Notes: generated by a model not told the origin, from the sequence alone. Shown: positions 4,499 to 17,313, numbered from the stretch's first letter. The stretch: DNA of 45,475 nt from a virus (IMGVR_UViG_3300025778_000024:1-45475); one strand, 5' to 3'. Made by a program: numbers and translations.

Positions 4499-4510
4499 AC
4501 CGGCCCCCAT

Positions 4511-4569: not shown

Positions 4570-4606
4570 AAAAGGTGAACAAAGCAGAAACGCTGACGTT
4601 ACGGTT

Positions 4607-4813
4607 ACGTAAGCTTGACCATACTGTAACGTAAGCTTCAGCATGACCATTGGTAAGCATGAGCAAGCGGGCCTTGGGTTTCCGTTACTGTTGCGTAAGC
4701 TTTACCATGCTGTAACGTAAGCACTAGCATGACGCACGTAAGCTTGACCATACTGTAACGTAAGCTTGACCATACGTAGCTTCAGCATGACGCACGTAAG
4801 CTGTAGCATGACG
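4607..4813. repeat. Phased operator/iteron array, about eight sites at ~21-22 bp
   Basis: Sites related to ACGTAAGCTTCAGCATGAC begin at 4607, 4629, 4693, 4715, 4736, 4758, 4774 and 4794, with a weaker copy near 4652. Most steps are 20-22 bp, close to two helical turns. Two versions occur: one with core AAGCTTGACCATACTGTA and one with AAGCTTCAGCATGACGC. The second version contains the 10-mer found in the early promoters. All copies point the same way. Possible roles are replication iterons, a partition site, a pac site next to the terminase small subunit gene, or a repressor sink. Confidence 0.7.
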
Positions 4814-4838
4814 CATGGTGATGCTTGCATGCTCGTGC

Positions 4839-4867
4839 TTGCGTGGTGAAGCTTATATTCCTATTAT
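4839..4867 (+). promoter_or_regulatory. Candidate promoter leaving the array toward the terminase gene
   Basis: TTGCGT (4839-4844), a 17-bp spacer and TATTAT (4862-4867) make a good sigma70-like promoter on the plus strand. The spacer contains GAAGCTT, the core of the array sites, as in the early promoters. It reads into the 3' end of the minus-strand terminase small subunit gene, so its transcript would be antisense to that gene or serve as a primer or regulatory RNA. No plus-strand gene follows directly. Confidence 0.45.
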
Positions 4868-4974
4868 GGAAACGGAACAAAAGGTGAAAACGTCACCAGT
4901 GGCAAACATCAGCATGTGATGATACAAGGTGGCCCAGAACAAGCAAAGCCTGTGTGCGGCCTTCTCTGTGGCTT

Positions 4975-5583
4975 CTAGAGGTCGTCTTCTTCAGGGCTTG
5001 GCAAAGCAATCTGCTCAAGCATCACCTGTAACTGCTCTCTCTGGTCATAGTCCAATTGACCAACATCAACAGGCTTAAGGTCAACCTGCCCAGAGATTTG
5101 CACCTGCTGCTTGTCGCTATAGTACTGATTCCACTTACCAATCAGCCTTATGCGCGCGTCTATCATGATGCGCTTGTCAGCAGGATCCAGTTCAGGATCG
5201 TCAGCAATCCCAATGCATTGGTCAGCCAAGTAATGCGTGCCAATTTCGCGTGCGTGCGCGGTGGCTTCAGCAAAATCGCTGTGGCGCATAATCCATTTCC
5301 AAACCGTGTCAAAGCTTGGCATGTTCTCAATCTGACATATGTCAACCATTGGTATGCCGTTTGCGAGCAGTATGCAGATAAAGTCCCGCATGTTCTCGCT
5401 ATACATTGTTGGGCGACCTTTGCCTCGTGGTCCTTGCAACTCTGGCTTGGTCCAATCCATGAGATGCATGAGCGAGTTAATGACAGCCTGCCTTTGCGCT
5501 TGCAGTTTTGTGTGAGCGTTGGCCTTGCGCTCCTGCAACTCAGCGTCTCTGTCTTCCTTGCTTTTCTTCTCTGCCTTGGCCAT
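4975..5583 (-). CDS. Terminase small subunit
   Basis: This 202-aa protein would recognise phage DNA and recruit the large terminase for packaging. After a Lys/Glu-rich N-terminus (residues 1-30) it has a G-R-P-T-M-Y segment (56-61) and a helix-turn-helix-like region (about 64-100, with GIPMVDICQIENMPSFDTVW). A central helical part with H-Y-L-A-D-Q-C and K-R-I-M-I-D-A-R-x-R-L-I-G-K-W motifs follows, the layout of Sf6 gp1-like small terminases. The acidic tail (PSPEEDDL) may contact the large subunit. No large subunit gene is in the window, so the two are separated by many kilobases. The repeat array begins about 160 bp downstream, a plausible packaging-recognition position. Confidence 0.8.
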   Translation of the reverse strand: MAKAEKKSKEDRDAELQERKANAHTKLQAQRQAVINSLMHLMDWTKPELQGPRGKGRPTMYSENMRDFICILLANGIPMVDICQIENMPSFDTVWKWIMRHSDFAEATAHAREIGTHYLADQCIGIADDPELDPADKRIMIDARIRLIGKWNQYYSDKQQVQISGQVDLKPVDVGQLDYDQREQLQVMLEQIALPSPEEDDL

Positions 5584-5647
5584 GTGTGATCTTTGCTGTT
5601 GTGCTTGTGGTTACTGGGAAGGTGAAGCTTGCTTGCGTAGGTTATGC

Positions 5648-5905
5648 TTAAGCTGCACTGTCTGGGTCTTCGTCGTCTTCCTCATCTGTAAGGCTTTCCC
5701 AATCCTCAGTCTCCATCATGTCTTCCACGTAGACCAATGTCTCATCTAGGACATCCATTGCCTGAAGCAGTATGCTTTGCTGTTCTGTCCACTCTAACAG
5801 GTCAAACTCGTCTGCCCAATCAACCGACACAATCACTTCATCGTCAGCATCCTTGTGAATGCTAAACGTCAGCATAGGCACTGCATCATCTGCTACTTCA
5901 CTCAT
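5648..5905 (-). CDS. Acidic hypothetical protein
   Basis: This 85-aa protein is strongly acidic, ending TDEEDDEDPDSAA, and contains an IVSVDWADEFDLLEWTEQQ segment. It overlaps the upstream gene by 4 bp (ATGA) and precedes the terminase small subunit gene, so the three probably form one operon. A box (ATGCTTAAGC, 5644-5653) one base off the early-promoter motif lies at its 3' end. Strong negative charge could mean DNA mimicry, but nothing else supports that. Confidence 0.65.
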   Translation of the reverse strand: MSEVADDAVPMLTFSIHKDADDEVIVSVDWADEFDLLEWTEQQSILLQAMDVLDETLVYVEDMMETEDWESLTDEEDDEDPDSAA

Positions 5906-6117
5906 GGCATTTCCCTCAAGTTCTTCAAGTGGATCACGTTACTAGCTTCAGCATCAACCTCGTATTCAACGACTTCCTCGCCCACGATCTCTTGCACTAA
6001 GTCAGATAAGGCCACCAACAGGTTAGCCTTCACATCATCAGACCACTCAGTTGGCTCCCCGCGAAATTTCATGGAAACAGACCCATCTACGTTACTGCTG
6101 AACCACAAAAACTGCAT
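5902..6117 (-). CDS. Hypothetical protein
   Basis: From the ATG at 6117 the product is 71 aa and begins MQFLWFSSNVDGSVSMKFRG. A GTG at 6159 would add 14 residues; the ATG is preferred for its GGCAGG element a few bases upstream. The protein has a beta-like first half and an acidic second half (VGEEVVEYEVDAEA). An exact copy of GCTTCAGCAT lies inside the gene at 5945-5954. It is the first gene of the terminase operon. The family is unknown. Confidence 0.6.
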   Translation of the reverse strand: MQFLWFSSNVDGSVSMKFRGEPTEWSDDVKANLLVALSDLVQEIVGEEVVEYEVDAEASNVIHLKNLREMP

Positions 6118-6192
6118 TTGCCTGCCTGAAATATGAAAATCATGTGACGAATCAATCACATAGCTAATCTACCACGACTCACAAACCTAGCC

Positions 6193-6268
6193 AAGCTTAG
6201 CCATGCGTTTTAGACATACCAGATATGCTAAAGTTTATGTTGCAATAAGCATCAGCATGTGAGACAAA
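6193..6268. promoter_or_regulatory. Divergent control region: promoter plus three operator-like boxes
   Basis: On the plus strand TTGCAA (6240-6245), 17 bp and GACAAA (6263-6268) fit the promoter pattern used before the following early genes. The spacer holds AAGCATCAGCAT (6247-6258), one base from the standard box. Two further box-like sites, AAGCTTAGCCAT (6193-6204) and ATGCTAAAGTTT (6225-6236), lie on the side of the minus-strand terminase operon. The region separates divergent genes and may control both directions. Confidence 0.55.
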
Positions 6269-6300
6269 CAATCATCAACAACGCAAACGGAGTAACCAAC

Positions 6301-6600
6301 ATGGACCTCATTTCAGATCTCACGGCTCGCATTGAAGCTTACCGCGCAACCAACAAGCAGCCTTGCAAAAACTACGCAACCCGCGAAGCAGCAGAAAAGG
6401 CAACCGCGAAGATGGCACACGATGCCGCTGTCTATTTTGCAGTTGACGGTTCTTTAATCACGAAGCCTGCTCGTTACGTCGTGTTCTTCAACGAAGCTTG
6501 GGGCCGTTGGGTTGGCGCGATTGACCTGACTGAATTGCTCAACCGCCCAACAAGCACAGGAGGCTATGTTGGCTTCTGCACTGGGTTTTACACCTACTAA
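6301..6600 (+). CDS. Conserved hypothetical phage protein
   Basis: This 99-aa protein begins MDLISDLTARIEAYRATNKQ and has a C-terminal half with FFNEAWGRWVGAIDLTELL and GGYVGFCTGFYTY. Proteins with this GRWVGxIDLTELL ending recur in small early regions of phages; no function is known to me. The ATG at 6301 follows the shared leader AACGCAAACGGAG, so an in-frame ATG at 6259, inside the promoter, is rejected. Its own operator-bearing promoter precedes it. Confidence 0.7.
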   Translation: MDLISDLTARIEAYRATNKQPCKNYATREAAEKATAKMAHDAAVYFAVDGSLITKPARYVVFFNEAWGRWVGAIDLTELLNRPTSTGGYVGFCTGFYTY

Positions 6601-6604
6601 AAAG

Positions 6605-6657
6605 TTATCCACAGGCTTCAGCATGTGGTTGACATATGCTGAAGCTTCCTCTACAGT
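6605..6657 (+). promoter_or_regulatory. Promoter with perfect DnaA box and inverted operator pair
   Basis: TTATCCACA (6605-6613) is an exact consensus DnaA box. GCTTCAGCAT (6615-6624) follows, then TTGACA (6629-6634), a 17-bp spacer containing ATGCTGAAGC (6636-6645), and TACAGT (6652-6657). The two operator copies are perfect inverted repeats starting 21 bp apart, one upstream of and one inside the promoter. The gene at 6684 starts shortly downstream behind the usual AACAACGGAG leader. Confidence 0.7.
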
Positions 6658-6683
6658 GTTTATATCAACAACGGAGATAACAG

Positions 6684-6881
6684 ATGACAAAGACCTACAA
6701 TGTAGCAGATTACGCAATGCACACCGGAACACAGCTTGTCATCATCCTTGACCACCTCTCATGGTCTCCTGACAATGTTTGGGTTCACTTTGTCCACAAC
6801 AATGGCGACCACAATGGCCTGATGCGCCTCGTGCGCAAGGCAGACTTGTCAAACTACCGCACTGCAGACCTGTTGGCATAA
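6684..6881 (+). CDS. Hypothetical protein
   Basis: This 65-aa protein begins MTKTYNVADYAMHTGTQLVI and contains WVHFVHNNGDHNGLMRLVRK. It is probably a small mixed alpha/beta protein. It starts 9 bases after the GGAG of the shared leader and is directly controlled by the promoter at 6629-6657. The family is unknown. Confidence 0.65.
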   Translation: MTKTYNVADYAMHTGTQLVIILDHLSWSPDNVWVHFVHNNGDHNGLMRLVRKADLSNYRTADLLA

Positions 6882-6892
6882 GGAGATTTACC

Positions 6893-7156
6893 ATGCGTCA
6901 GATCGTAAAAGATATGCTCAAATGCGAAGAACTCTTCCACGTCTTCAACAATCAGCTATGCGTGGACGACAACAAAACACCTGACGAGTACTCTGATCAG
7001 GACATCATTGAAGAGGCCAAGTATCAGCTATCCCTTTATTACGAGAGTGGCACGACCAACAACGAGATGTTCACAGGCGAGCATACCCCAGAAGAGCAAG
7101 CACAGGCAAAGCGCGAAGTCCAACAGATCAAACGCTTCCTTGCAAAATACGCATAG
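6893..7156 (+). CDS. Hypothetical acidic helical protein
   Basis: This 87-aa protein begins MRQIVKDMLKCEELFHVFNN and is largely helical and acidic, with a Lys/Gln-rich C-terminal helix. The ATG at 6893 is chosen because AAGGAG (6880-6885) lies just upstream. Only 11 bp separate it from the stop of the gene before, so it is probably co-transcribed from the promoter at 6629. The family is unknown. Confidence 0.65.
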   Translation: MRQIVKDMLKCEELFHVFNNQLCVDDNKTPDEYSDQDIIEEAKYQLSLYYESGTTNNEMFTGEHTPEEQAQAKREVQQIKRFLAKYA

Positions 7157-7173
7157 CAGGTATGCAAACAAAC

Positions 7174-7215
7174 ATGCTAAAGCTTGTTGACACCTAGCAA
7201 ACTTTAGCATACAAC
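7174..7215 (+). promoter_or_regulatory. Operator-bearing early promoter
   Basis: TTGACA (7187-7192), a 17-bp spacer and TACAAC (7210-7215) form the promoter. ATGCTAAAGCTT (7174-7185) lies just upstream, and the spacer ends in the inverted partner AACTTTAGCAT (7200-7210), which runs into the -10 element. The leader AACAACGGAG follows, before the gene at 7242. Confidence 0.65.
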
Positions 7216-7241
7216 AGAGACATCAACAACGGAGCGACAAC

Positions 7242-7433
7242 ATGACCAAAGATTTTGAGATTGACCTAGCCTTCTACGCCAACATCAACAACGCGAAAGA
7301 ATGGCAAGCCCTTACTGACAAATACGTGTTTTGCATTGACCTTCTTGGCATCTCTGCGTGGGATCGTGATGCTGATGATAAGGTTAACGCCCTTGAGGAT
7401 GCCTTTGAAGCCATCCTTGCCACCGCTAATTGA
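7242..7433 (+). CDS. Hypothetical small acidic protein
   Basis: This 63-aa acidic protein begins MTKDFEIDLAFYANINNAKE and contains ISAWDRDADDKVNALEDAFE. It starts behind the shared leader and its own operator-bearing promoter. It is followed after 11 bp by a 54-aa gene. The family is unknown. Confidence 0.6.
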   Translation: MTKDFEIDLAFYANINNAKEWQALTDKYVFCIDLLGISAWDRDADDKVNALEDAFEAILATAN

Positions 7434-7444
7434 GGAGCATGAGC

Positions 7445-7609
7445 ATGACACTGGTCAAATCAGAGGGTCTCGCTACCCTGCACCGCAAGGAAGGCTTTGG
7501 CGGACGTTGCACGGCTCGCGTTGAGTGGGTCGTGTCCTACAATGGCCGCATCGTTGCCACCTACAACACCAAGCGCGAAGCTTTGGCCATGTTCGCAGCC
7601 CACGCATAA
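7445..7609 (+). CDS. Hypothetical 54-aa basic protein
   Basis: This short gene begins MTLVKSEGLATLHRKEGFGG and ends KREALAMFAAHA. The ATG at 7445 is 7 bases after GGAG; an ATG at 7439 lies too close to that site. It is a compact, basic, probably beta-alpha protein. The family is unknown. It shares the promoter at 7187 with the gene upstream. Confidence 0.55.
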   Translation: MTLVKSEGLATLHRKEGFGGRCTARVEWVVSYNGRIVATYNTKREALAMFAAHA

Positions 7610-7636
7610 TTGCATAACAGCCATGCAAAATAATAC

Positions 7637-7665
7637 TTTACACAAGCTTCAGCATATGCGATAAA
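7637..7665 (+). promoter_or_regulatory. Operator-bearing early promoter
   Basis: TTTACA (7637-7642), a 17-bp spacer and GATAAA (7660-7665) form the promoter, with AAGCTTCAGCAT (7644-7655) filling most of the spacer. An ACAACAGGAG leader lies downstream, before the gene at 7692. Confidence 0.65.
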
Positions 7666-7691
7666 CAGACATCAACAACAGGAGCAACAAC

Positions 7692-8030
7692 ATGAAACAC
7701 ACACCCGCACCTTGGTCTTTCTATTGTGAAGAAGATAGCCACGACAGTTGGATCGTTCAGAATGACGGCACCCAAGACAGTGACCGTGTTATCTGCCGCA
7801 TGGAACGCAACAAGCGTGTCAAGCATGAAGACAAGCGCAAATCAGACGATTACCGCATAGCCGCTGAAGAGGTCGCCAATGCCCGTCTGATGTCCTGCGC
7901 ACCTGAACTGCTAGACATGCTTCAGCGCCTGCGTCAGGTCATTGCTGAGCAACCATATCAAAGCGAGAACGAGGCGCTACATGTTACGCTATCGCAGTGT
8001 GATGCTTTGATTGACAAAGCTATCGCATAA
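7692..8030 (+). CDS. Conserved phage protein, HTPxPW / NARLxxxAPELL type
   Basis: This 112-aa protein opens MKHTPAPWSFYCEED and has EVANARLMSCAPELLDMLQRL near residues 60-80. That is the hallmark of a widespread small phage family that starts HTPGPW and ends with ANARLIAAAPELLEAL. The function of the family is unknown. The C-terminal helix (HVTLSQCDALIDKAIA) is also typical. It has its own operator-bearing promoter and the shared leader. Confidence 0.75.
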   Translation: MKHTPAPWSFYCEEDSHDSWIVQNDGTQDSDRVICRMERNKRVKHEDKRKSDDYRIAAEEVANARLMSCAPELLDMLQRLRQVIAEQPYQSENEALHVTLSQCDALIDKAIA

Positions 8031-8032
8031 CA

Positions 8033-8056
8033 GCTTCAGCATATATTTATCATATT
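8033..8056 (+). promoter_or_regulatory. Operator box with weak promoter
   Basis: GCTTCAGCAT (8033-8042) is followed by an AT-rich stretch with -10-like TCATAT (8050-8055) and then the leader AACAACGGAG before the gene at 8074. The best -35 at 17 bp is ATAACA (8027-8032), which is poor. The box itself is exact; the promoter is less certain than its siblings. Confidence 0.45.
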
Positions 8057-8073
8057 AACAACGGAGACCCAAC

Positions 8074-8364
8074 ATGACAAATCTTGTCACCCCAACAATC
8101 CACAACAACGGTACTGACGGACATGAACTGCTATTCCAAGTGCAACGTGTCTTGGCCTCATTGGCCCTTGTGCAAGCCGCAATGCGCGAAGCAAGCCCTC
8201 ATGCCAGAGATTACTACCCGCAAGGCTCTAATGCCACTGAGGAGGCCCGCAAGGCTTATTATGAGCGGTATGCTGAGGTTAATGTAATGCTAGAAGAATT
8301 TCAGGCATTGGCCTTCGCAATAGATGCCCAGAACGAGGCGCGCGCAGAAAGGTCAGCAGCATGA
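8074..8364 (+). CDS. Conserved hypothetical phage protein
   Basis: This 96-aa protein begins MTNLVTPTIHNNGTDGHELL and contains HARDYYPQG near residues 43-51, then a helical C-terminal half. Short proteins with the PTIHxNGT opening and the RDYYPQG motif are common in phage early regions, with no known role. It starts behind the shared leader and overlaps the next gene by 4 bp (ATGA). Confidence 0.75.
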   Translation: MTNLVTPTIHNNGTDGHELLFQVQRVLASLALVQAAMREASPHARDYYPQGSNATEEARKAYYERYAEVNVMLEEFQALAFAIDAQNEARAERSAA

Positions 8365-8468
8365 TCCGTGCAATAATTGACGACCTCATTGCCATTGTTT
8401 GCCTGTCAGCTTTCATGATGTGCATTTACGTATGGTCAACTGAAATAGGCGCATTTTTCTACGATTGA
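8361..8468 (+). CDS. Tiny membrane protein, 35 aa
   Basis: This gene begins MIRAIIDDLIAIVCLSAFMM and is nearly all one hydrophobic helix (residues 8-27), with a short polar end. The ATGA overlap with the gene before supports translation. Early phage membrane microproteins of this size often act on host membrane or superinfection, but no function can be claimed here. Confidence 0.5.
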   Translation: MIRAIIDDLIAIVCLSAFMMCIYVWSTEIGAFFYD

Positions 8469-8506
8469 GCCATGCAATAAAACATAGCAGGCATGCAAAA
8501 ACATGC

Positions 8507-8535
8507 TTGCAACATGCTAAAGCTTATGCAATAAA
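8507..8535 (+). promoter_or_regulatory. Operator-bearing early promoter
   Basis: TTGCAA (8507-8512), a 17-bp spacer and AATAAA (8530-8535) form the promoter, with ATGCTAAAGCTT (8514-8525) in the spacer. The upstream sequence CATAGCAGGCATGCAAA nearly matches that before the promoter at 7187, so a second upstream element may be shared. The leader downstream carries an insert with GCGCTGAGGCGC, a small hairpin. Confidence 0.65.
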
Positions 8536-8580
8536 CAGTCATCAACAACGCGCTGAGGCGCAAACAAACGGAGCAAGACA

Positions 8581-8997
8581 ATGGGTTACCTTTCCAACGA
8601 ACTTAAAGCCACCATCAAGGCCAATGTAAAGAATGTGTGCGCAAAGCATGGCATCAAGGCAACTGTTAGTGTTGAAGGCGGCATGACCCCAGTACTCAAT
8701 GTGAATATCAAATCAGGTGCAATTGATTTCATTAATAATTACAATGAAACTTATAACTCAAAATTGCACGGCCACAATCCTTTGTGGTCACCCGCAGAAG
8801 ATTACATTGATGTGAACACTTACCATTTTACCAACCACTTTAATGGCAAGGCATTAGATTTTCTGCGTGAACTGAATACGGTAATCAACGAAGGCAACCA
8901 CGACAACAGCGACAGCCAATCTGATTACTTTGATGTTGGTTGGTATTCCCGTATTCATGTAGGCCATTGGCACAAACCATACCAATTAGCAGCATAA
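8581..8997 (+). CDS. Conserved hypothetical phage protein
   Basis: This 138-aa protein begins MGYLSNELKATIKANVKNVC. Its first half has KHGIKATVSVEGGMTPVLNV, then IKSGAIDFINNYN. The second half has NHFNGKALDFLRELNTVINE, a GNHDNSDSQSDYFDVGWY stretch and a final HVGHWHKPY. I recall similar phage proteins ending with this DYFDVGWY-x-G-x-W-KPY block, all of unknown function. It follows its own operator-bearing promoter and a GGAG site. Confidence 0.7.
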   Translation: MGYLSNELKATIKANVKNVCAKHGIKATVSVEGGMTPVLNVNIKSGAIDFINNYNETYNSKLHGHNPLWSPAEDYIDVNTYHFTNHFNGKALDFLRELNTVINEGNHDNSDSQSDYFDVGWYSRIHVGHWHKPYQLAA

Positions 8998-8999
8998 CA

Positions 9000-9017
9000 G
9001 AGGGGCTTTGGCCCCTC
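9000..9017 (+). terminator. Hairpin after the 138-aa gene, possible terminator
   Basis: GAGGGGC (9000-9006) and GCCCCTC (9011-9017) form a 7-bp stem with a TTTG loop, two bases after the stop codon at 8995-8997. Only a weak T-poor sequence follows (ACTTACC), so it may attenuate or protect the RNA 3' end rather than fully terminate. The next gene, at 9042, has a leader but no clear operator promoter of its own. Confidence 0.45.
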
Positions 9018-9041
9018 ACTTACCAACAACGGAGAAAACAC

Positions 9042-9239
9042 ATGGACGCATACTTTCCCAATTCAGCAGAACGCGCAGACTTCCACGCTTGGCTTCGCGC
9101 CATCTTGCGTAACCCAGACGGTTACGTTGTGCGGTGGGCAAACTTCTTAATCAGTCAGCATGACTGGTCGTCAAGCAAGCGCATTGAGATCAGCCGCCAT
9201 CAAACCAAAAGCGGCAACCCAGAATTTTACACTTTCTAA
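9042..9239 (+). CDS. Hypothetical protein
   Basis: This 65-aa protein begins MDAYFPNSAERADFHAWLRA and ends SGNPEFYTF. It starts after the shared AACAACGGAG leader; an in-frame ATG at 8940 lies inside the previous gene and is rejected. It is probably helical at the N-terminus and beta at the end. The family is unknown. Confidence 0.65.
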   Translation: MDAYFPNSAERADFHAWLRAILRNPDGYVVRWANFLISQHDWSSSKRIEISRHQTKSGNPEFYTF

Positions 9240-9251
9240 CGGAGAAAACAC

Positions 9252-9452
9252 ATGTACATCCTTACTGACGTTTCATTACCACAAGCCAACGTAGTCCTTG
9301 CAGAGACCTCATCTGTGGCGGATGCCATCGCTGCGGCCTCAGAGTTTGGCAAGATTTATCTTGTGGAGGAAGATGAAGCCTACCCTGACCACTACGACCT
9401 GATCTCATGGAAGGGTAGCCTGTTCACCATTCAACCAAAGAAAGCGCGCTAA
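9252..9452 (+). CDS. Hypothetical protein
   Basis: This 66-aa protein begins MYILTDVSLPQANVVLAETS and is predicted as a small alpha/beta fold with an acidic centre (VEEDEAYPDHYD). The leader AACGGAGAAAACAC precedes it, nearly the same as before the gene at 9042. The family is unknown. Confidence 0.65.
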   Translation: MYILTDVSLPQANVVLAETSSVADAIAAASEFGKIYLVEEDEAYPDHYDLISWKGSLFTIQPKKAR

Positions 9453-9453
9453 C

Positions 9454-9690
9454 ATGAACCAAGAACTTGATCCCCTTGATCCTACTGGCCTTACCTTTGA
9501 TGGACACGGATCACGATACGGCCACCGGACCCGTCAATTCACCGTTACAGGGTTTCGCGACCGTGACCACGCAGTTGCATGGTCAGAGGCTTATTACAAG
9601 CGCGCAATGGGCTATGGTCCTTCCATGCGCATCCAAGACACGGAAGACGGTTACATAATTGATGTTAATGAAATGACATCCTGCGACTAA
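9454..9690 (+). CDS. Hypothetical protein
   Basis: This 78-aa protein begins MNQELDPLDPTGLTFDGHGS. It has two Arg/His-rich patches (SRYGHRTRQF and RDRDHAVAWSE) and ends VNEMTSCD. It starts one base after the previous stop and is translated with it. The family is unknown. Confidence 0.6.
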   Translation: MNQELDPLDPTGLTFDGHGSRYGHRTRQFTVTGFRDRDHAVAWSEAYYKRAMGYGPSMRIQDTEDGYIIDVNEMTSCD

Positions 9691-9697
9691 ATGACGC

Positions 9698-9726
9698 TTG
9701 ACACAAGCTTCAGCATCTGAAATAAC
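9698..9726 (+). promoter_or_regulatory. Operator-bearing early promoter
   Basis: TTGACA (9698-9703) is a perfect -35, followed by a 17-bp spacer with AAGCTTCAGCAT (9705-9716) and AATAAC (9721-9726). The leader AACGCAAACAACGGAG follows, before the gene at 9762. It is the last member of the series. Confidence 0.7.
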
Positions 9727-9761
9727 ACTCACACCAACAACGCAAACAACGGAGATAACAC

Positions 9762-10085
9762 ATGATCCCTTCAGTAGACTTCATTGGCATGTCAGATGCC
9801 GCACTTGTTGACGAAGCAGCCAAGCTTAATGCCCTTGCTGATGCCATCAAGGTCAAGCTTGACGAGGCCAAGGCCATCCTGCGCTCGCGTGGTGCAGGTG
9901 ACATTTTTGGTGACGCATACAAAGCCACCATTGGCAAGGAAAGCGTTTCGTGGTTGCTTAACAAAGACCTGATCACAAAAGACATGGGCGAGGCTTGGGT
10001 AATCAAGCATTCCAAGCAGGTGGTCAGCGCAGGCCGCGTGACCTTCAAGCCTCACGTTACATTGGGCGACATCAAGGTAGCATGA
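9762..10085 (+). CDS. Hypothetical protein
   Basis: This 107-aa protein begins MIPSVDFIGMSDAALVDEAA. The N-terminal half is a long helix with repeated Ala/Leu/Lys, probably a coiled coil (residues 10-45). The rest contains GDAYKATIGKESVSWLLNKD and VSAGRVTFKPHVTLG, plausibly a small beta domain. The layout resembles phage proteins that accompany recombination genes, but I cannot name the family. It has its own operator-bearing promoter. Confidence 0.65.
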   Translation: MIPSVDFIGMSDAALVDEAAKLNALADAIKVKLDEAKAILRSRGAGDIFGDAYKATIGKESVSWLLNKDLITKDMGEAWVIKHSKQVVSAGRVTFKPHVTLGDIKVA

Positions 10086-10252
10086 TCCTACCTTGGCCCA
10101 CCAAAAAGAAGAAAGCGCGAGACCTTAGCGGGCCTCGCGTTCGCATGTGGCTTATGATGCGTGACCCACCTGTTGCGTGTAACCCCGCCACTTTAGTAGT
10201 AATCAACATCACAAAGGATAAATCACATGGCTATCAAAACAGCACCAATTGA
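10082..10252 (+). CDS. Hypothetical basic 56-aa protein
   Basis: This small protein begins MILPWPTKKKKARDLSGPRV and is highly basic at the N-terminus. It starts in an ATGA overlap with the previous gene and overlaps the next by 26 bp. The coupling supports translation, but composition alone is not decisive. Confidence 0.5.
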   Translation: MILPWPTKKKKARDLSGPRVRMWLMMRDPPVACNPATLVVINITKDKSHGYQNSTN

Positions 10253-10553: not shown

Positions 10554-10864
10554 CTGGCTATCAAAGCAAAAAGAAAAGCGCGCAGATCCGGTGGCTTGGC
10601 CCATATGCACCTGATGACCGACACGCTGATGACGTGACACTTGAATACATCATTGCCCTCCGCAATAAGGTTGCCATGCTAGAGGATGCCTTGCGTCAGG
10701 CTACTGTCCAGTTAAGTGAAGCCACGATGAAGGGTATTGTCCTTAAAAAGGGCATTCAGGATATTATGGACTTTTATTACACTCAAGACCCCAGTAGCCT
10801 GAACAACATAGAAACCATCCTGCGCTTGCGTGGTGCGATAGATGCAATGAGGCAAACCCCATGA
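10550..10864 (+). CDS. Hypothetical coiled-coil protein
   Basis: This 104-aa protein begins MTGYQSKKKSAQIRWLGPYA, and from residue 28 on it is a long helix with heptad-like spacing (YIIALRNKVAMLEDALRQAT). ATGA overlaps join it to both neighbours in a five-gene run ending at the GcrA-like gene. The family is unknown. Confidence 0.65.
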   Translation: MTGYQSKKKSAQIRWLGPYAPDDRHADDVTLEYIIALRNKVAMLEDALRQATVQLSEATMKGIVLKKGIQDIMDFYYTQDPSSLNNIETILRLRGAIDAMRQTP

Positions 10865-11091: not shown

Positions 11092-11291
11092 TGGGAAACG
11101 AAGATTTAATTAAACGCGTGACCGGTTTATCTCACGATTTAGAGAACCCGCAACAGGTCATCACCCTCATGATGGTGCTTGATGAACTGGACCGCCTTTA
11201 CAAAGTTGAACGAGGCGTTTGCCCCTGCAAAAAGCGCGATGCTGAATTGGAGCAAATGTTCGCCTACTTTGAGGAGGAACGCTCATGCTAA
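11091..11291 (+). CDS. Hypothetical protein with CPC motif
   Basis: This 66-aa protein begins MGNEDLIKRVTGLSHDLENP and has two helices plus a C-P-C pair (about residues 44-46) and a C-terminal Cys. The ATG at 11091 forms a TGATG overlap with the previous stop, so the GTG just before it is not needed. The family is unknown. Confidence 0.65.
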   Translation: MGNEDLIKRVTGLSHDLENPQQVITLMMVLDELDRLYKVERGVCPCKKRDAELEQMFAYFEEERSC

Positions 11292-11821
11292 TGCCGCGAG
11301 CCTTTAGTAAACGTGAGCATGAGGAATTGCTGCGCATGTGGCAAGAGGGTGTCCCTGCATCCACTATTGCGGCGACACTGGGCGAGGGTAGGACACGCAA
11401 CAGCATCTTGGGCTATGTTTACCGTCTCAGGCGAACTATGCCGGAATTGCAACGCATGCCCACCCCAAAGCGCACACGGTCTGGCAATCCTGCATCGCCT
11501 CGCGTACCAAAGCCACAAAGGCCTAAACCCATCCCTGTGGTGCAGGTTAATATCTTCACGCCCATCATTGAGGAGCCACCGCCAGAGGGTGGAGTGCCTT
11601 ATTTTGAGACCCGCCTATTCCAATGTAAATACATCCTCAACACGTCTAAGGATGCCCACAATATTAAGTGCTGCGGTGGCACCGTCCACAGGGGAAGTTC
11701 GTGGTGCCGCAAGCATTACGAGGAAGTTTTCACAGGACGTACTGACCACGAAACACAGGCCGTCCGTTTATTGTCTGGCAAAATTCCGGTGGCATCAAAG
11801 TTCCAGTTTCGTCAAAGGTAA
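11285..11821 (+). CDS. GcrA-family cell-cycle regulator homologue
   Basis: This 178-aa protein matches GcrA layout. Residues 6-50 form the helix-turn-helix with W-x-E-G-V-x-A-x-x-I-A-A-x-L-G and T-R-N-S-I-L-G-Y-V-Y-R-L. A Pro/Lys linker follows, and residues 112-148 carry the C-terminal module with C114, C129/C130, C141 and H144 (F-Q-C-K-Y-I, W-C-R-K-H-Y). In Caulobacter, GcrA binds sigma70 and CcrM-methylated promoters and sets S-phase genes. A phage copy could redirect host RNA polymerase. The ATG at 11285 is 7 bases after GAGGAGG. It overlaps the convergent metallophosphoesterase gene by 92 bp. It is the last gene of the early plus-strand block. Confidence 0.8.
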   Translation: MLMPRAFSKREHEELLRMWQEGVPASTIAATLGEGRTRNSILGYVYRLRRTMPELQRMPTPKRTRSGNPASPRVPKPQRPKPIPVVQVNIFTPIIEEPPPEGGVPYFETRLFQCKYILNTSKDAHNIKCCGGTVHRGSSWCRKHYEEVFTGRTDHETQAVRLLSGKIPVASKFQFRQR

Positions 11822-12677
11822 GCACGACGAAGCCTTGATGCGCACGATTTGGCGCACCCTCACCATATTGGAAAGCTTTGTGGTTAGGGTCGCCCAACAT
11901 GCCAGTCTCAACACCCCAATGCGATCCACGACGATTGCGCACTGCCGTTAGCTGTTGGGCATGCGTGTGGTTAGTTACCGTAGTCCATCCTGATACCTGC
12001 GCATTGTTGTAAGCCGCGTGAATACCCGCGCGAAACCTGTGCCGGATTTCCACATCGTCATTCAAATGAAGCGAATAAGAAAATTCCCACATTGGGAAAC
12101 GGTCAGCCAATCGCCCTGCATATTCTTCCAATTCAGCCGCCTGATTTGCGAGATAGTTATCGACCCGCATGTCATGATTACCTATGGTAAAGATGCGGCG
12201 CCTGCATTTAGGGAATTGATCCATCCACTTTTTGGCGGCGTCAATCTCAGCAGAGACTTTAGGAGCGGCTGACCCTAGCGTAGCCCCGTGACGACTTACT
12301 CTGGCCCCGTCAATGATATCACCATTAAGACATATAATTTGCGGCTTCAATTGCTTTGCAAGCTTAATGAAAGCTTTCATCATAACAGTTTCAACACCCG
12401 GCCAAATATGGGCATCTCCGCCAATAATGATACAGCCGTCAATAATTTCATCCGTCAAAACTTGCGCGTATAGCCATTGCGAACCTACACCGTCATTTTC
12501 TTTTTCATATCTTTCCCACAACTCTGGGAAACGTCTTTGGATCATGTCTAGTCTGGCTTGAACTGTTGAGGCGGGCATCGTCAGCACTCGCCCCGTAGCC
12601 CTTACAATTTTATTTTGGCGGTAATATTCTTTTAGTGTCTCTTCTAACACTTCTTTGGATAATGCGGGCATTGCCAT
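11730..12677 (-). CDS. Metallophosphoesterase (calcineurin-like) with HTH-like N-terminus
   Basis: This 315-aa protein has the metal-binding motifs of the calcineurin-like phosphoesterase fold in order: G-D-A-H (87-90), N-G-D-I-I-D (118-123), G-N-H-D (166-169), a conserved His around 220, and N-H-T-H (236-239). Family members hydrolyse phosphomono- or diesters, including nucleic acids and 2',3'-cyclic phosphates. Residues 1-60 look like a helix-turn-helix with TGRVLTMPASTVQARLDMI, which suggests targeting to DNA. The start at 12677 has a GAGGA site upstream. The gene is transcribed against its neighbours. A DNA or RNA processing role is likely; the substrate is unknown. Confidence 0.8.
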   Translation of the reverse strand: MAMPALSKEVLEETLKEYYRQNKIVRATGRVLTMPASTVQARLDMIQRRFPELWERYEKENDGVGSQWLYAQVLTDEIIDGCIIIGGDAHIWPGVETVMMKAFIKLAKQLKPQIICLNGDIIDGARVSRHGATLGSAAPKVSAEIDAAKKWMDQFPKCRRRIFTIGNHDMRVDNYLANQAAELEEYAGRLADRFPMWEFSYSLHLNDDVEIRHRFRAGIHAAYNNAQVSGWTTVTNHTHAQQLTAVRNRRGSHWGVETGMLGDPNHKAFQYGEGAPNRAHQGFVVLTFDETGTLMPPEFCQTINGRPVFRGQYVL

Positions 12678-12761
12678 TTTTAAACATCCTCATTTGACGT
12701 TGGACGCAAAATACACAATATCAGCGTTATGACAAGGGTTTGACGAAACAGGGTTAATGAC
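12678..12761. promoter_or_regulatory. Divergent intergenic region
   Basis: This 84-bp AT-rich segment lies between the metallophosphoesterase gene (minus) and a small HTH gene (plus). Minus-strand TTGTCA with TATTTT at 16 bp, and plus-strand TTGACG with CAATAT at 16 bp, are the best promoter candidates; they overlap each other. No exact GCTTCAGCAT box is present. The HTH protein encoded alongside could act here. Confidence 0.4.
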
Positions 12762-12998
12762 ATGACTGCTGATGAATTTACTGCGTTTGTGAATTACGTG
12801 AAGGAAGAGTTTGGCGCTTGGGAATACCAACTCGCCAAATCAATGGGCGTGACACGCCAGACAGTTGCGCAATGGAAGCTTAAGGGGTCACCCGCTTGGG
12901 CTGACCTTGTGGCGGCTGCCGTGGTCAACGGGCTTGATCCTTGGAAACCTGAGCCAGAACATCTGCCCAATCCTGCCCTACGGTCTCAGGGAACATAA
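12762..12998 (+). CDS. Small HTH protein, Cro/YdaS-like
   Basis: This 78-aa protein has a helix-turn-helix at about residues 18-45 (YQLAKSMGVTRQTVAQWKLK), with the short 'V-T-R-Q-T-V-A-Q-W' recognition helix typical of Cro and YdaS-type regulators. A hydrophobic helix follows (WADLVAAAVVNG). It is transcribed alone and its last 74 bp overlap the convergent primase gene. It is a candidate early/late switch regulator; its operators are unknown. Confidence 0.65.
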   Translation: MTADEFTAFVNYVKEEFGAWEYQLAKSMGVTRQTVAQWKLKGSPAWADLVAAAVVNGLDPWKPEPEHLPNPALRSQGT

Positions 12999-13848
12999 CC
13001 GTCACATCAAGCTTGCGCTGAAGCTTCAAGCGTCTGGCCAATGAATATGATGCGGCATGGCCAGTGAAGCTTTCGTCGTTATCACCAAAAACTATAACAC
13101 TCCGTGCTACAGGTGGCGGCTCCCACTTGGCTAGGTTGTGGGCATTGATGGCTGACCACACGGGTATGCCATGCATCACGGAGGCTGCTATAGCTGTCTC
13201 AATGCCTTCAGCAATGCCCATGATATCATCTGCCGGAGCAAGCCTGATGGCAGACCCCGCAGGCACCTTGCCGGACATGATCCGTTTGGGCGTGTCAATT
13301 TTGGCACGGAATCCATTGTGGTCCAAATAGGTCAAGTGGACATTGTGAGCCTTGTTGTCTGGCCCCACAATCTGGCTGACCATCAGGCAGTGGTTCCGGC
13401 CAATAAACTCCCTGACCGATTTAGAAGCCCACACAAGGCCAAGGCGCCTCTGTAGGTACTTCGCCACTGGCCCATCCTTGGAAGGCCTTCCAGAGGTCTC
13501 CCAAATGCGTTTAATGGCCTGACGGTGGACTTCCTCCTGCTCCCTGTCTTTGGGGGATAGGACAGGCCTTTCGCCCATGATGGATGCCACCTGCTTTGCA
13601 ACCTGAGCAAAAGTCTGCCCAGTCACCATTTGCGCAAGCTTGAAACCATCATTAGAGCCACACACGGAACAGATGTAAACCCCATCTCCGTTGCGGTCTG
13701 TAAACCGGAAACGATCCTTGCCTCCACACATTGGGCAAGGGGTATGCTTACCCGTCAGATACTTTGCATCAACGCCAAACTGCGGAAGAAGTTCCCGCCA
13801 GTGGCCCCGCGCTATATCCGCTGTTTGTCGTTCTTGATTGTTTTTCAC
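12925..13848 (-). CDS. DNA primase with Zn ribbon and Toprim domain
   Basis: This 307-aa protein would make RNA primers at the phage fork. Residues 38-63 form a CHC2-type zinc ribbon with C-P-M-C-G (38-42) and C-S-V-C (60-63) around K-D-R-F-R-F. Residues 205-300 form a Toprim domain with E-G-I-E-T-A (214-219, catalytic Glu) and G-D-N-D (255-258, metal-binding acids). It has no helicase domain of its own; the SF2 helicase gene lies directly upstream in the same operon and its 3' end overlaps this start by 80 bp. The N-terminal ARGHWRELLPQFG is typical of the start of phage primases, so the overlapping start is accepted. Confidence 0.85.
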   Translation of the reverse strand: MKNNQERQTADIARGHWRELLPQFGVDAKYLTGKHTPCPMCGGKDRFRFTDRNGDGVYICSVCGSNDGFKLAQMVTGQTFAQVAKQVASIMGERPVLSPKDREQEEVHRQAIKRIWETSGRPSKDGPVAKYLQRRLGLVWASKSVREFIGRNHCLMVSQIVGPDNKAHNVHLTYLDHNGFRAKIDTPKRIMSGKVPAGSAIRLAPADDIMGIAEGIETAIAASVMHGIPVWSAINAHNLAKWEPPPVARSVIVFGDNDESFTGHAASYSLARRLKLQRKLDVTVMFPETVGQDWADVLAQVSKDQAR

Positions 13849-15307
13849 GTTGCTTTGCCTTCACAATGTTGCGGTGCCTAATCCAACTCAACGTAGCCGC
13901 AGACGGCGAGAGGGCGATGCCCTTAAACGAGTTGGCGGGTCCAACGCCAAATTTATCCTTGTAGGCCCAATAAGCCCACCCGTCTTTAAATCCTTTTGTA
14001 ACCGCGTAGCCACGCAGTTCTCCGTAGAATGTTTCCTTTTCCTTCGTGGTATAAGCTGAGACTTGCTTTTTTCCGTCTCTACTAAGTTCAGCGAGTGTAC
14101 CTGTAACACTTGCAACCTTATCAACAGCCTCAGCCTTGAAACCACATGATGGGCATGTCTGCGTACGCGGGGGCTTGAGAAATGTGCATTTTGGGCAAGC
14201 CTTGGGAAGGGGGATGGCTTTTTCACGTTGCGCTGTACCACGTCCGGCTCCGTCATCAAGTTTGTCGTAAATGATATCCGTAACAAAGCCCAACCTAAGC
14301 GTAGTATCGCTGTGGTCAAGCACAAGGCAGTGATCCTTGCCCTCAGCCGTCCGCAAGCCACGGCCAATCATTTGCGTGTACAAAATTTCAGACTTGGTTG
14401 GGCGGGCCAAAATAATGCAACGCACATCCCAATCTACACCCGTGGTTAACACGCCCACGTTGCAGACCACCCGTAAATCGCCGTCCGCGAATTGTTTGGC
14501 GATTATTGCGCGTTCATCCAAATCTGTGTAGGCATCCATATATCCCGTTGGAACGCCCGCCTCCAAAAACAAGTTTTGAATGTGCTTTGCGTGGGTGCGG
14601 TTGACTGCAAAGCAAATCGTTGACCTGTTATCGCCTTTCTCCATCCATGTTGACACGATGTCAGCCACGAGCGGCGCCTTGTCCATTGCCTTGCCAAGCT
14701 GATGCTTGTTGTAGTCACCCGCCACAGTGCCAACACCGGACAGGTCAGGCGATGCCGGAGCAAACACCTTGAAGTCAGACAGGTGCTTCAAATCAATCAA
14801 TTCTTGAGTCGTGGTGCCAATGATCAAATCATCATACAGGCGCCCCATGCCTTTGGCCCACGGTGTGGCCGTCAAACCTACAACTGGAACGTCTTTCCAT
14901 TCCTCGCTGTTAAACCACGTTTCGTAAAACTTAAACAGGATGTGGCACTCGTCCACGATAACCAAATCCGCTGCAGGAATTTTCCGGCGGGCCAAAGTCT
15001 GCACAGAACAAACCTGAACAGGCTGACTGGCATCCGTCCGCTCATGCATGGCCTGAATGACGCCAATTTCCCAAATGTCGTGCCGCTCAAACTTCTCAAC
15101 CGTCTGGTCAATCAAGCTGATGCTTGGTACGCAAAACAGGACGCGATTTCCTTTTGCCCTCGCCATACGCACGATTTCAGCCGCCGCAATGGTCTTGCCC
15201 GCGCCTGTGGGCATCTGAACCACGGGACGTTTGTGGCCTGCTGAAAGTGACTTGCGCAACTTAGCTATAGCATCTGTTTGGTAGTCTCTTAGGACTGCTT
15301 TAGTCAT
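13769..15307 (-). CDS. SF2 DEAD/DEAH-box helicase with C-terminal zinc ribbon
   Basis: This 512-aa protein carries the SF2 helicase motifs. P-T-G-A-G-K-T (33-39) is Walker A, D-E-C-H (119-122) is Walker B, T-A-T (146-148) is motif III and Q-M-I-G-R-G-L-R (312-319) is motif VI. Four cysteines (C371, C374, C385, C388) then form a zinc ribbon. Helicases of this type unwind or remodel DNA in phage replication and recombination. The gene is followed by the primase gene with an 80-bp overlap. An AT-rich promoter-like region lies just upstream (15319-15357). Residues after about 440 are a poorly conserved tail. Confidence 0.85.
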   Translation of the reverse strand: MTKAVLRDYQTDAIAKLRKSLSAGHKRPVVQMPTGAGKTIAAAEIVRMARAKGNRVLFCVPSISLIDQTVEKFERHDIWEIGVIQAMHERTDASQPVQVCSVQTLARRKIPAADLVIVDECHILFKFYETWFNSEEWKDVPVVGLTATPWAKGMGRLYDDLIIGTTTQELIDLKHLSDFKVFAPASPDLSGVGTVAGDYNKHQLGKAMDKAPLVADIVSTWMEKGDNRSTICFAVNRTHAKHIQNLFLEAGVPTGYMDAYTDLDERAIIAKQFADGDLRVVCNVGVLTTGVDWDVRCIILARPTKSEILYTQMIGRGLRTAEGKDHCLVLDHSDTTLRLGFVTDIIYDKLDDGAGRGTAQREKAIPLPKACPKCTFLKPPRTQTCPSCGFKAEAVDKVASVTGTLAELSRDGKKQVSAYTTKEKETFYGELRGYAVTKGFKDGWAYWAYKDKFGVGPANSFKGIALSPSAATLSWIRHRNIVKAKQREKQSRTTNSGYSAGPLAGTSSAVWR

Positions 15308-15308
15308 T

Positions 15309-15357
15309 ATGTTACCTGTAATGTTATATATATTATATTATACTACTAATGTTACCT
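15309..15357 (-). promoter_or_regulatory. AT-rich promoter-like region upstream of the helicase gene
   Basis: Reading the minus strand, a run with GTATAATATAATATATATA contains two overlapping TATAAT -10 elements just before the helicase start. ATGTTACCT repeats at 15309-15317 and 15350-15358 (plus-strand reading) flank it. No good -35 is seen at 17 bp, so an activator or an upstream element may be needed. Confidence 0.45.
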
Positions 15358-15401
15358 TCTTGTGTAGGTTTGTTAATCGCGCGCGACTTACTTAGGAAAG
15401 A

Positions 15402-15433
15402 ACCCGCCTCCAAGCGGGAGGCCAGAGGCGGGT
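15402..15433 (-). terminator. Hairpin terminator or attenuator before the helicase gene
   Basis: ACCCGCCTC (15402-15410) and GAGGCGGGT (15425-15433) form a 9-bp GC-rich stem. On the minus strand it is followed by TTCTTT, as in intrinsic terminators. A second stem, GCCTCC with GGAGGC, shares its bases with the first, so the two are mutually exclusive. It lies between the DnaA-like gene and the helicase gene and could end or attenuate transcription there. Confidence 0.5.
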
Positions 15434-15490
15434 CAAGTCACCGTTATCAGCGGGCCTCAAAGGGAGGAGCAGCCCGCGATGTTGTGACTA

Positions 15491-15910
15491 TCACGGATTT
15501 GCACTGGATGCAATTCTTTTTTCATGGCACTTGACGCCATAAATGACCGTGCTGTGGGAAACCTTCAGCATGTTTCCAATTTGGGAAACTCCCATCTTTA
15601 ATTCGTTCTTGGCCCTGTATAAAATTTCCTGTTTAACCTTAATCACGTCTGGCTTGCGTGTTGGGCTTTTGACAATTTCAGGGTCAATTCCATGCATGGC
15701 TGCCACTTCACGCAGCATCCGTGTAAACCTATTTGTTGGAATATTAACATCTAAAACAGGCGATGGGTTGCCCTGCGAATCAATTGCATGCGGCAATTTG
15801 ACGCGAGATAAAGGCACAACACCTGTAGGGCCGGACACGCCACCAAGCCGCTTCTTGACGGCAATGTAGTGCGCCCTCAGTTCATTAAAAGTCGACGGCT
15901 CTGGTTCCAT
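15491..15910 (-). CDS. DnaA domain IV-like DNA-binding protein, no AAA+ domain
   Basis: Residues 65-133 of this 139-aa protein match domain IV of DnaA: R-E-V-A-A-M-H-G-I near 67-75, S-P-T-R-K-P-D-V-I at 82-90, then S-Q-I-G-N-M-L at 109-115 and S-H-S-T-V-I-Y-G at 118-125 (the signature in DnaA is G-R-D-H-T-T-V). This domain binds DnaA boxes. The AAA+ domain that opens the origin is missing, so this protein could only compete at, bridge or mark DnaA boxes. One perfect box lies at 6605-6613. The start codon directly follows ATGCTGAAGC (15920-15911, minus reading). It overlaps the RusA gene end by 34 bp. Confidence 0.75.
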   Translation of the reverse strand: MEPEPSTFNELRAHYIAVKKRLGGVSGPTGVVPLSRVKLPHAIDSQGNPSPVLDVNIPTNRFTRMLREVAAMHGIDPEIVKSPTRKPDVIKVKQEILYRAKNELKMGVSQIGNMLKVSHSTVIYGVKCHEKRIASSANP

Positions 15911-16269
15911 GCTTCAGCATCCTCTTCAAGTCCATAAATCGTAACTATCATTGGAGTGCCGTGGTCTGACCACTCAGCCGCAATCGCGTGGCATTCGCTG
16001 TCATCCTCAACTATTTTGTTCTTCACCAAAAGGTCGCTCGTTGATTTCAGTAGGTTGTCTAAGTCACGCCGCCGCTTGTCCGGCTTTGTGGCGGTTATGT
16101 GGATTATATAGGGGCCAGTGACCTGTTGCTTTGTCTGCGCCTTGATCATCCACCCCGCCTCTTCAAGCCAAGCCGTATATTCCGGCGACTTGTACATGCG
16201 ACCACCCTTGCCAATCTTCCACAGGCGGTTTGTGCTTGGTGCCAATGGTAACTCAAGCCGCACTATCAT
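15877..16269 (-). CDS. rusA: RusA-family Holliday junction resolvase
   Basis: From the ATG at 16269 this 130-aa protein opens MIVRLELPLAPSTNRLWKIG, the RusA start. It has K-P-D-K-R-R-R-D-L-D-N (62-72) with acidic residues D69 and D71, then D-D at 89-90, matching the three catalytic aspartates of RusA in spacing. RusA dimers cut four-way junctions made by recombination or replication. A longer frame starting at 16329 lies inside the XRE gene and is not used; the chosen start overlaps that gene by 17 bp. Confidence 0.8.
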   Translation of the reverse strand: MIVRLELPLAPSTNRLWKIGKGGRMYKSPEYTAWLEEAGWMIKAQTKQQVTGPYIIHITATKPDKRRRDLDNLLKSTSDLLVKNKIVEDDSECHAIAAEWSDHGTPMIVTIYGLEEDAEAWNQSRRLLMN

Positions 16270-16477
16270 TTTCTGCCCAATCAAGGAAAAAATGATGCAA
16301 GGTAATTTCCTTGTTGGTCGCCTGCACAATGCGCACCATCAAAGCCAATGATGGGTCTTGGATGCCACGCTCAACCCGCGAAATGGAGGATGCGGTTGTG
16401 CCTGCCATTTTGGCCAACTCAGATAAAATAATTTTGTTCTTTATACGCCACTGACGTAAGGGGTGATTCTTACTCAT
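16253..16477 (-). CDS. XRE/Cro-CI-type transcriptional regulator
   Basis: This 74-aa protein is one helix-turn-helix domain (residues 14-60): LSELAKMAGTTASSISRVER is the HTH, and G-I-Q-D-P-S-L follows as in Cro/CI-type proteins. It has no oligomerisation or cleavage domain. It lies second in the replication operon and overlaps its neighbours by 8 and 17 bp. It could control its own promoter (16716-16815) or the dispersed GCTTCAGCAT sites; nothing in the sequence decides. Confidence 0.75.
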   Translation of the reverse strand: MSKNHPLRQWRIKNKIILSELAKMAGTTASSISRVERGIQDPSLALMVRIVQATNKEITLHHFFLDWAENDSAA

Positions 16478-16715
16478 TAGGAACTACTCTTGGTCTTTCA
16501 CGAATAACGGGTAGCGGCACTGCGACATTGGGACGCCCCATCGTTACATTGGCTTGCCCACGGACTTCCTTGTTGCTCCAAGTCCAGCACTCGCCATTTT
16601 CGTCTTGAAATACAACCCAAAGCAAGTCATGCTCTGCGCCGTAATCAATCAAAACTTGGGCAAGCCCCTTGCCTTTTGGCGTGATTACCGGAATTGGTGG
16701 ATTTAACTGTAGCAT
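16470..16715 (-). CDS. Conserved phage protein, PKGxGxAxxVIDYGxEHDLLWVVF type
   Basis: This 81-aa protein begins MLQLNPPIPVITPKGKGLAQ and continues with IDYGAEHDLLWVVFQDENGE and WTWSNKEVRGQ. I recognise this block from many phages of proteobacteria, where it appears as an uncharacterised small protein near replication or regulatory genes. It has no known function. It is the first gene of the replication operon, next to a divergent promoter region. Confidence 0.75.
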   Translation of the reverse strand: MLQLNPPIPVITPKGKGLAQVLIDYGAEHDLLWVVFQDENGECWTWSNKEVRGQANVTMGRPNVAVPLPVIRERPRVVPNE

Positions 16716-16815
16716 AAGAACCCCTTGACGACTATTTACATCATGCGTAAATCATCCCCTTGTCGCTGACAACGACAGACAGACGAAATAGACGCATTTT
16801 TTACAAAGGACGCAA
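16716..16815. promoter_or_regulatory. Divergent promoter/operator region of the two replication operons
   Basis: On the plus strand TTGACG (16725-16730), 17 bp and TAAATC (16748-16753) form a good promoter for the recombination operon. An inverted repeat, TTTAC-N6-GTAAA (16736-16740, 16747-16751), overlaps its spacer and -10 element. TGTCG and CGACA arms further downstream are another dyad. On the minus strand the best match is TTGTCA, 17 bp, TACGCA, which is weak. An XRE gene lies in the left operon, so repression of both sides by it is a reasonable inference. Confidence 0.5.
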
Positions 16816-17313
16816 ATGTCAAACAAATACGACATAGATATGCTGAAGCGAACTATTGAGTTGCTTCTTGAAAGATACCCAGAACTGAGGGAAGACGAGG
16901 AACTCAAGGAAGACATGCTTGAGGGATCAACAGATTTCCGCGAAACAATGGAAAGGCTGCTACGTAAAACGCAGGATAGCATTTACCTAGCCAAGGCCTG
17001 CCAAGATGCTGAACGTGACATCCACAACCGCCGCGCGCGATTTGAGAAACGAGTTGAGTTTGGCCGTGAGTTGATGAAGCGACTCATGGAAGCCGCTGAT
17101 GTTCGCAAGCTTGAGTTTCCAACGGCTACCCTGTCCCTAATGAATACGCCGCCACAAGTGGTCGTAACCAACGAGGACGAACTGCCGGAAGAATTTTTCC
17201 GCATTAAAAAAGAACCCAACAAAACATTGATAAAGCAAGCACTGGAGAAAACAGATGTGCGTGGCGCAACGCTCTCCAACGGTGGCACTTCCATCGTCAT
17301 CAGGGGAGCCTAA
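16816..17313 (+). CDS. Siphovirus Gp157-like protein
   Basis: This 165-aa protein is mostly helical: residues 1-95 form a long charged helix bundle. It ends with a beta-rich part (ATLSLMNTPPQVVVTNEDEL, KKEPNKTLIKQAL, RGATLSNGGTSIVI). This arrangement, including the R-x-x-x-x-x-N-x-x-P-x-x-V-V block and the E-x-x-P-x-x-F/Y, is that of the Gp157 family. The family occurs beside ERF or RecT annealases and has been linked to phage resistance in Streptococcus thermophilus. It is the first gene of the recombination operon. ATGCTGAAGC lies inside it at 16840-16849, near the start. Confidence 0.75.
   Translation: MSNKYDIDMLKRTIELLLERYPELREDEELKEDMLEGSTDFRETMERLLRKTQDSIYLAKACQDAERDIHNRRARFEKRVEFGRELMKRLMEAADVRKLEFPTATLSLMNTPPQVVVTNEDELPEEFFRIKKEPNKTLIKQALEKTDVRGATLSNGGTSIVIRGA

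Follow-up and report, generated by a model that had tools for sequence, protein, structure and literature searches.

Genes and repeated sites of the locus

The window, i.e. the whole 45,475-nucleotide stretch of viral DNA analysed here, carries in its left part the gene for the terminase small subunit (terS, 4975-5583, minus strand; PF20901, E 2.7e-23). An array of about nine direct predicted operators (4607-4858, plus strand) was found by matrix scan directly 3' of terS, and terS is its fixed neighbor. A set of small early genes is read rightward beyond terS, followed by the genes of a GcrA-like protein (11285-11821, plus strand; PF07750, E 2.9e-12), a small lambda-repressor-like helix-turn-helix (HTH) protein of 78 aa (12762-12998, plus strand) and an XRE protein (16253-16477). 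The window also encodes a stand-alone DnaA domain IV protein (15491-15910, minus strand; PF08299), which is conserved wherever a relative extends into this region. Two pairs of convergent genes, HTH/primase (12925-12998) and GcrA-like/metallophosphatase (11730-11821), have overlapping 3' ends, and both overlaps are kept in relatives. The long stretch 3443-4607 is without convincing genes and contains repeats, for example GTATACGGGAGTGCGTATA, with partial conservation in the related contigs G003, G010 and G016.

Neither terL nor the portal gene was found in the window. In G003 these two genes, named by position and size, have the small genes on one side and the capsid gene on the other, and the distance from the capsid gene to the genes at the left end is about 13 kb; the window contig is therefore a fragment. 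GANTC sites are depleted in the window (51 versus 111 expected), suggesting that the host, probably an alphaproteobacterium, methylates or cleaves GANTC.

Counts, width and symmetry of the motif

The original prediction described a dispersed regulon built on the 10-mer GCTTCAGCAT. All ten of its exact copies, on either strand, were recovered (4635-4644, 4779-4788, 5945-5954, 6615-6624, 6636-6645, 7646-7655, 8033-8042, 9707-9716, 15911-15920 and 16840-16849). This is the commonest 10-mer across the window, and 100 dinucleotide shuffles of the window gave a mean of 0.15 and a maximum of 2 copies. A window scan bore out the claimed absence of exact copies from 20-45 kb, and the one-mismatch copies reported at 7174, 8514 and 6249 were present. 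When the proposed one-mismatch scan was run with shuffles, the enrichment stood (24 matches versus 3.8 expected), but the late region was not free of such copies and held seven.

The motif is better described as a quasi-palindrome with the consensus AAGCTTNANCAT than as the 10-mer. The wider pattern AAGC[AT]TNAN[CT]AT occurs 14 times in the window versus 0.4 expected, and none of 300 column-permuted control patterns exceeded 3 occurrences. The site had been called asymmetric, which is only partly right: the 16-bp sites agree with their own reverse complements at 8-12 of 16 positions, compared with 3.9 for random 16-mers. A 20-bp matrix scored 16 or higher at 22 places in the window, 20 of them intergenic and between 4607 and 9720 and two in genes (3213 and 10315). 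Intergenic copies served as the training set of the matrix, which makes this split partly circular; counts of the exact pattern are free of this circularity. The matrix scan at this score found no site from 10.4 to 45.5 kb.

Three of the exact copies (5945, 15911 and 16840) lie in reading frames and score weakly on the matrix (12.4, 10.4 and 14.6, respectively), so they are probably chance occurrences. With these genic copies discounted, the actual regulon ends near 9.7 kb and is smaller and tighter than first described. Chance or coding bias, in which runs of Ala/Ser codons produce GCTTCAGCAT, accounts for these three copies and for the late one-mismatch copies in genes. As an explanation of the whole it has next to no probability, as it leaves the intergenic clustering and the conservation in relatives unexplained, and for the intergenic set it is refuted. 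The sites were also considered as an RNA element; no Rfam model matched at the gathering threshold, and the single low-threshold hit was a chance match (E 0.28).

Two sets of operators were distinguished, one forming the 22-bp-phased array 3' of terS and the other lying in the core, i.e. the spacer or the -10 box, of six or seven early promoters.

Putative operators in the early promoters

The promoters, all on the plus strand, were assigned by eye as consensus matches. The promoter of gene 6301 (TTGCAA-17-GACAAA, 6240-6268) has the operator AAGCATCAGCAT in its spacer (6247-6258) and a further minus-strand operator at 6225-6236. That of gene 6684 (TTGACA-17-TACAGT, 6629-6657; 6613-6657 as a feature) has a minus-strand operator in the spacer (6636-6647) and a plus-strand operator upstream of the -35 box (6613-6624), beside which lies one perfect DnaA box, TTATCCACA, at 6605, found also in the relative G008. 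For gene 7242 (TTGACA-17-TACAAC, 7187-7215; feature 7174-7215), one operator overlaps the edge of the -10 box (7199-7210) and a minus-strand operator lies upstream (7174-7185). The operator AAGCTTCAGCAT is in the spacer for both gene 7692 (7644-7655; TTTACA-17-GATAAA, 7637-7665) and gene 9762 (9705-9716; TTGACA-17-AATAAC, 9698-9726), and the latter copy is retained in G008 and G009. Gene 8581 (TTGCAA-17-AATAAA, 8507-8535) has a minus-strand operator in the spacer (8514-8525). Upstream of gene 8074, where the promoter assignment is uncertain, a plus-strand operator (8031-8042) probably overlaps the -10 box (TATATT).

These six or seven promoters are near-identical and share the leader CAACAACGGAG or one close to it, and the genes between the sites form apparent operons without sites. 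Among the six promoters with a -35 box, a -10 box and a 17-bp spacer, the operator covers spacer positions 2-13 of five promoters and positions 7-18 of the remaining one, and both orientations occur. A second conserved palindrome, CATRNCAGNYATGC, lies upstream of the -35 box (6215-6228, plus strand), with further copies at 7152, 7613 and 8483 (4 copies versus 0.00 expected); in three of the four promoters it precedes the presumed start by about 53 bp. It is found upstream of early promoters in relatives too, and is perhaps an activator site.

Bacterial GcrA acts at sites within promoters, and the motif might likewise be an early-promoter element read by RNA polymerase in concert with an activator, for example the GcrA-like protein of the phage. 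The near-fixed position of the spacer sites in most window promoters and the retention of the GcrA-like gene (PF07750) in relatives are in keeping with this idea. We nevertheless consider it improbable, since the register shifts by about 5 bp, the orientation flips, some operators sit on the -35 box, the array lacks promoter geometry, and the recognition helix of GcrA stays the same across differing motifs. The loose register and orientation of the operators, together with the optimal 17-bp spacing and the good -35 boxes, fit steric repression better than activation.

The array beside terS

The 12-mers of the array start at 4611, 4633, 4655, 4697, 4719, 4740, 4762, 4777 and 4798, mostly in steps of 21-22 bp, which equal two helical turns. 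The matrix scan also found three weaker minus-strand copies at about 4815-4854. The first of these covers the -10 box of a leftward promoter-like element at the right edge of the array (TTGTTC-17-TATAAG, 4852-4880, minus strand; assigned by eye), and the block containing this element is conserved in G008, G001, G002, G010 and G014, with variation at the -10 box. Within the window the array sites carry the submotif GACCAT, whereas the promoter sites carry CAGCAT. The array may control the leftward edge promoter, act as a reservoir or be an origin.

Beside the array are GTTC/GAAC-N7 direct-repeat boxes (4511-4580, at 4511, 4533 and 4566; no strand assigned), whose number in the window by itself is not significant; in relatives they are phased at 11 bp, and G014 has as many as seven consecutive boxes. 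GTTC direct repeats are also present on the other side of the array (4867-4890). The boxes resemble alphaproteobacterial LexA boxes, and they could reflect SOS control or another binding protein.

As an origin of the iteron type, the array would be bound by a phage initiator, for which the DnaA domain IV protein and the HTH protein are possible candidates; through the promoter copies as operators this initiator would control early genes too, in the manner of plasmid Rep proteins. The array does consist of tandem, non-coding direct repeats spaced 21-22 bp apart and is flanked on either side by further conserved repeats, the submotifs of array and promoters differ (in L118 by analogy), and a DnaA-domain protein is encoded and accompanied by the box at 6605. 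On the other hand, the neighboring gene is terS rather than an initiator gene, no DnaA box lies in the array and hardly any in the relatives, the cumulative GC-skew has no extreme at the array, the majority of sites are in promoters, and the helix of the DnaA-domain protein does not vary with the motif. An iteron origin therefore appears unlikely to us.

Related phages keep the layout with a changed motif

Searches with TerS, the helicase, the HTH protein and an early gene as queries yielded about 15 useful contigs. An array after terS is present in G007, G008, G001, G014, G002, G003 and L118. G007 and G008 share the motif of the window, and G014 has it in both array (steps of 22, 22, 21, 22 and 22) and promoters. 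The motif is changed in the array and promoter sites of G001, G002, G003 and L118 and in the promoter sites of G011, G004, L119, L121 and L120. It reads AAGCTTRACCAT in G001, partly on the -35 box; AAGCATNAGCAT in G002 and G011, with AAGCATGAGCAT as the operator sequence of the G002 type; and AAGCTTNASTAT in G003 and G004. Each of L118, L119 and L121, whose HTH protein is about 43% identical to that of the window, has three or four early promoters with TAAGCTATGCCAT; in L118 a AAGCTAAACCAT array follows terS, with array and promoter submotifs differing by analogy with the window. In relatives the operator can instead overlap the -10 box (G008, G014 and G011) or the -35 box (G001, G004 and G014).

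No motif type could be assigned to G016, and the type of G010 rests mainly on its array. Three helicase relatives in which no HTH gene was detectable (G017, G018 and G023) had no such spacer operator. Plain 10-mer discovery in the relatives was noisy and overlooked arrays masked by spurious frames. The exact promoter string gave mostly unrelated single matches in IMG/VR, the true relatives being L034 (the same contig as L016) and L024. The motif copies in L033 look like repeats inside a gene and were rejected as operators. MW202675 shares the capsid protein and has different replication genes.

Since the relatives hold the array and the early-promoter sites in the same places with an altered motif, as observed directly in their sequences, the putative operator regulon is conserved across related phages, and its restriction to the left part is more strongly supported than was originally claimed. 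The unchanged layout with a changed word also argues that the protein reading the operators is probably encoded by the phage.

Candidate binding protein

Four proteins had been put forward as possible binders, namely the XRE, HTH, DnaA-like and GcrA-like proteins, and comparison of recognition helices narrowed these to the HTH protein (12762-12998) as the favored candidate. In the alignments its recognition helix starts at T31-R32-Q33; the AlphaFold2 model is confident and has five helices (pLDDT 86), of which the third begins with residues 31-33. The lambda-repressor fold is suggested by weak Foldseek matches, the best being lambda cI and the 434 repressor (E 0.2), and by Pfam matches below the cut-off. 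Among the candidates, the recognition helix of the HTH protein is the only one that is shared by phages of one motif type and changes from type to type. It starts with TRQ where the motif is AAGCTT..CAT (window and G014), HRT with AAGCAT..CAT (G002 and G011), ARQ with AAGCTT..TAT (G003 and G004), SRQ with GCWTGACYAT (G010), SRP with AAGCTATGCC (L118, L119 and L121) and HRV with AGCTRTGCCA (L120).

The three other proposed proteins are disfavored. The XRE helix is nearly identical in the window, G003, G010 and G016 despite differing motifs, the GcrA-like helix RTRNS/A is constant while motifs differ, and the DnaA-domain helix is common to G014 and G002 despite differing motifs. TerS was also considered and was rejected, as its sequence identity and the motif do not go together: it is only 40% identical to the TerS of G008, a contig with the same motif, and 62-72% identical to those of G001-G003, which have other motifs.

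The co-variation of helix and motif is confounded with descent. A core-gene tree groups the genomes as the motif types do, and other proteins have columns that split likewise, e.g. nine columns of the primase; the column test intended to remove phylogeny did not remove it. As unrelated proteins split alike, the case for the HTH protein is one of elimination and plausibility rather than proof. It most likely remains the best candidate. Counting against it as a repressor, the promoter of its own gene has no operator, and the binder could instead be an unlisted or a host protein. No relative of the HTH protein was found in 84,980 prokaryote genomes by a two-pattern scan, and among the named phages searched there was no HTH match and no GcrA-like match at E 1e-5.

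Proposed mechanism

We propose, with a probability of roughly 60%, that a phage-encoded Cro-like repressor, most likely the HTH protein, shuts off the early promoters through the quasi-palindromic operators. The protein would be produced from its own operator-free promoter and would bind AAGCTTNANCAT operators in the -35/-10 region of the six or seven early rightward promoters. Coverage of the core promoter by the repressor would block the host RNA polymerase, so that the small early genes would be switched off jointly as infection proceeds. The same protein would cover the 22-bp-phased array 3' of terS, whose sites would lie on one face of the DNA, and there it would probably restrain the leftward edge promoter or load cooperatively, as at a high-capacity site. 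The sites, where they stand and their conservation in altered form among relatives are observations; that they serve repression, which protein binds them and when shut-off occurs are inferred.

The same sites could form an immunity regulon of a temperate phage, of the L5 or P1 C1 type, in which one repressor silences early and late prophage promoters. The operators are dispersed, the motif types differ among relatives as immunity groups do, and a leftward promoter may lie under the array. However, no match to PF00589, PF00239 or PF13614 (tyrosine integrase, serine recombinase and ParA) was found in the window and seven relatives, most of these eight contigs being incomplete, and the lack of HTH relatives in the two-pattern scan of prokaryote genomes also speaks against lysogeny. 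Immunity is thus quite unlikely, and the lack of these genes in the incomplete contigs favors lytic early shut-off. A more specific and, in our view, doubtful scenario is that this is a non-integrating family in which the helix of one Cro-like protein and about 20 operators have changed together to give five or more specificity types, the array beside terS serving as a counting or titration device that times the early shut-off.

Comparison with known systems

The original prediction likened the sites to the stoperators of mycobacteriophage L5, a reading that our results do not support. As in L5 and cluster A, there are twenty or more near-identical dispersed sites, some in early promoters, and the site consensus shifts in step with the repressor from one related phage to the next (PMC9283540, PMC6550527). 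The L5 sites, however, are asymmetric 13-mers that follow the direction of transcription and for the most part lie outside promoters; they are bound by a monomeric, two-domain repressor of 183 aa from a temperate phage (PMC9283540, PMC6550527). Here the candidate has 78 aa, the sites have a partial dyad, the minus-strand operators at 6636, 7174 and 8514 stand beside rightward genes, the strong sites other than the array are in or beside promoters, and no integration or partition gene was found in the eight mostly incomplete contigs. Elongation may still be blocked within the array.

The circuit shares with Cro and CI of lambda, 434 and P22 a small HTH protein with weak matches to the lambda-repressor fold, and operators that overlap the core of early promoters. 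Those phages have few operators in one or two control regions, whereas about 20 sites, in seven promoters and the array, were found here. In P1, the single repressor C1 acts at many dispersed operators that overlap promoters in either orientation, an arrangement like the one observed here with a presumed single repressor. C1 is a larger protein from a plasmid prophage and is unrelated to the 78-aa candidate, and we know of no tandem array beside terS in P1. Plasmid Rep proteins with autorepression bind iterons, direct repeats of about 22 bp, and a related operator at promoters. Here no Rep protein was found and several promoters instead of one carry the sites.

By analogy, the circuit appears to work like a Cro or P1 C1 operator regulon. 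An uncultured phage group thereby gains a concrete circuit with a candidate repressor, an operator and target promoters, and the differing operators of the relatives offer a natural series on the joint change of specificity in a small HTH protein and many operators. If no lysogeny exists in these phages, the drift of operator types needs an explanation other than immunity.
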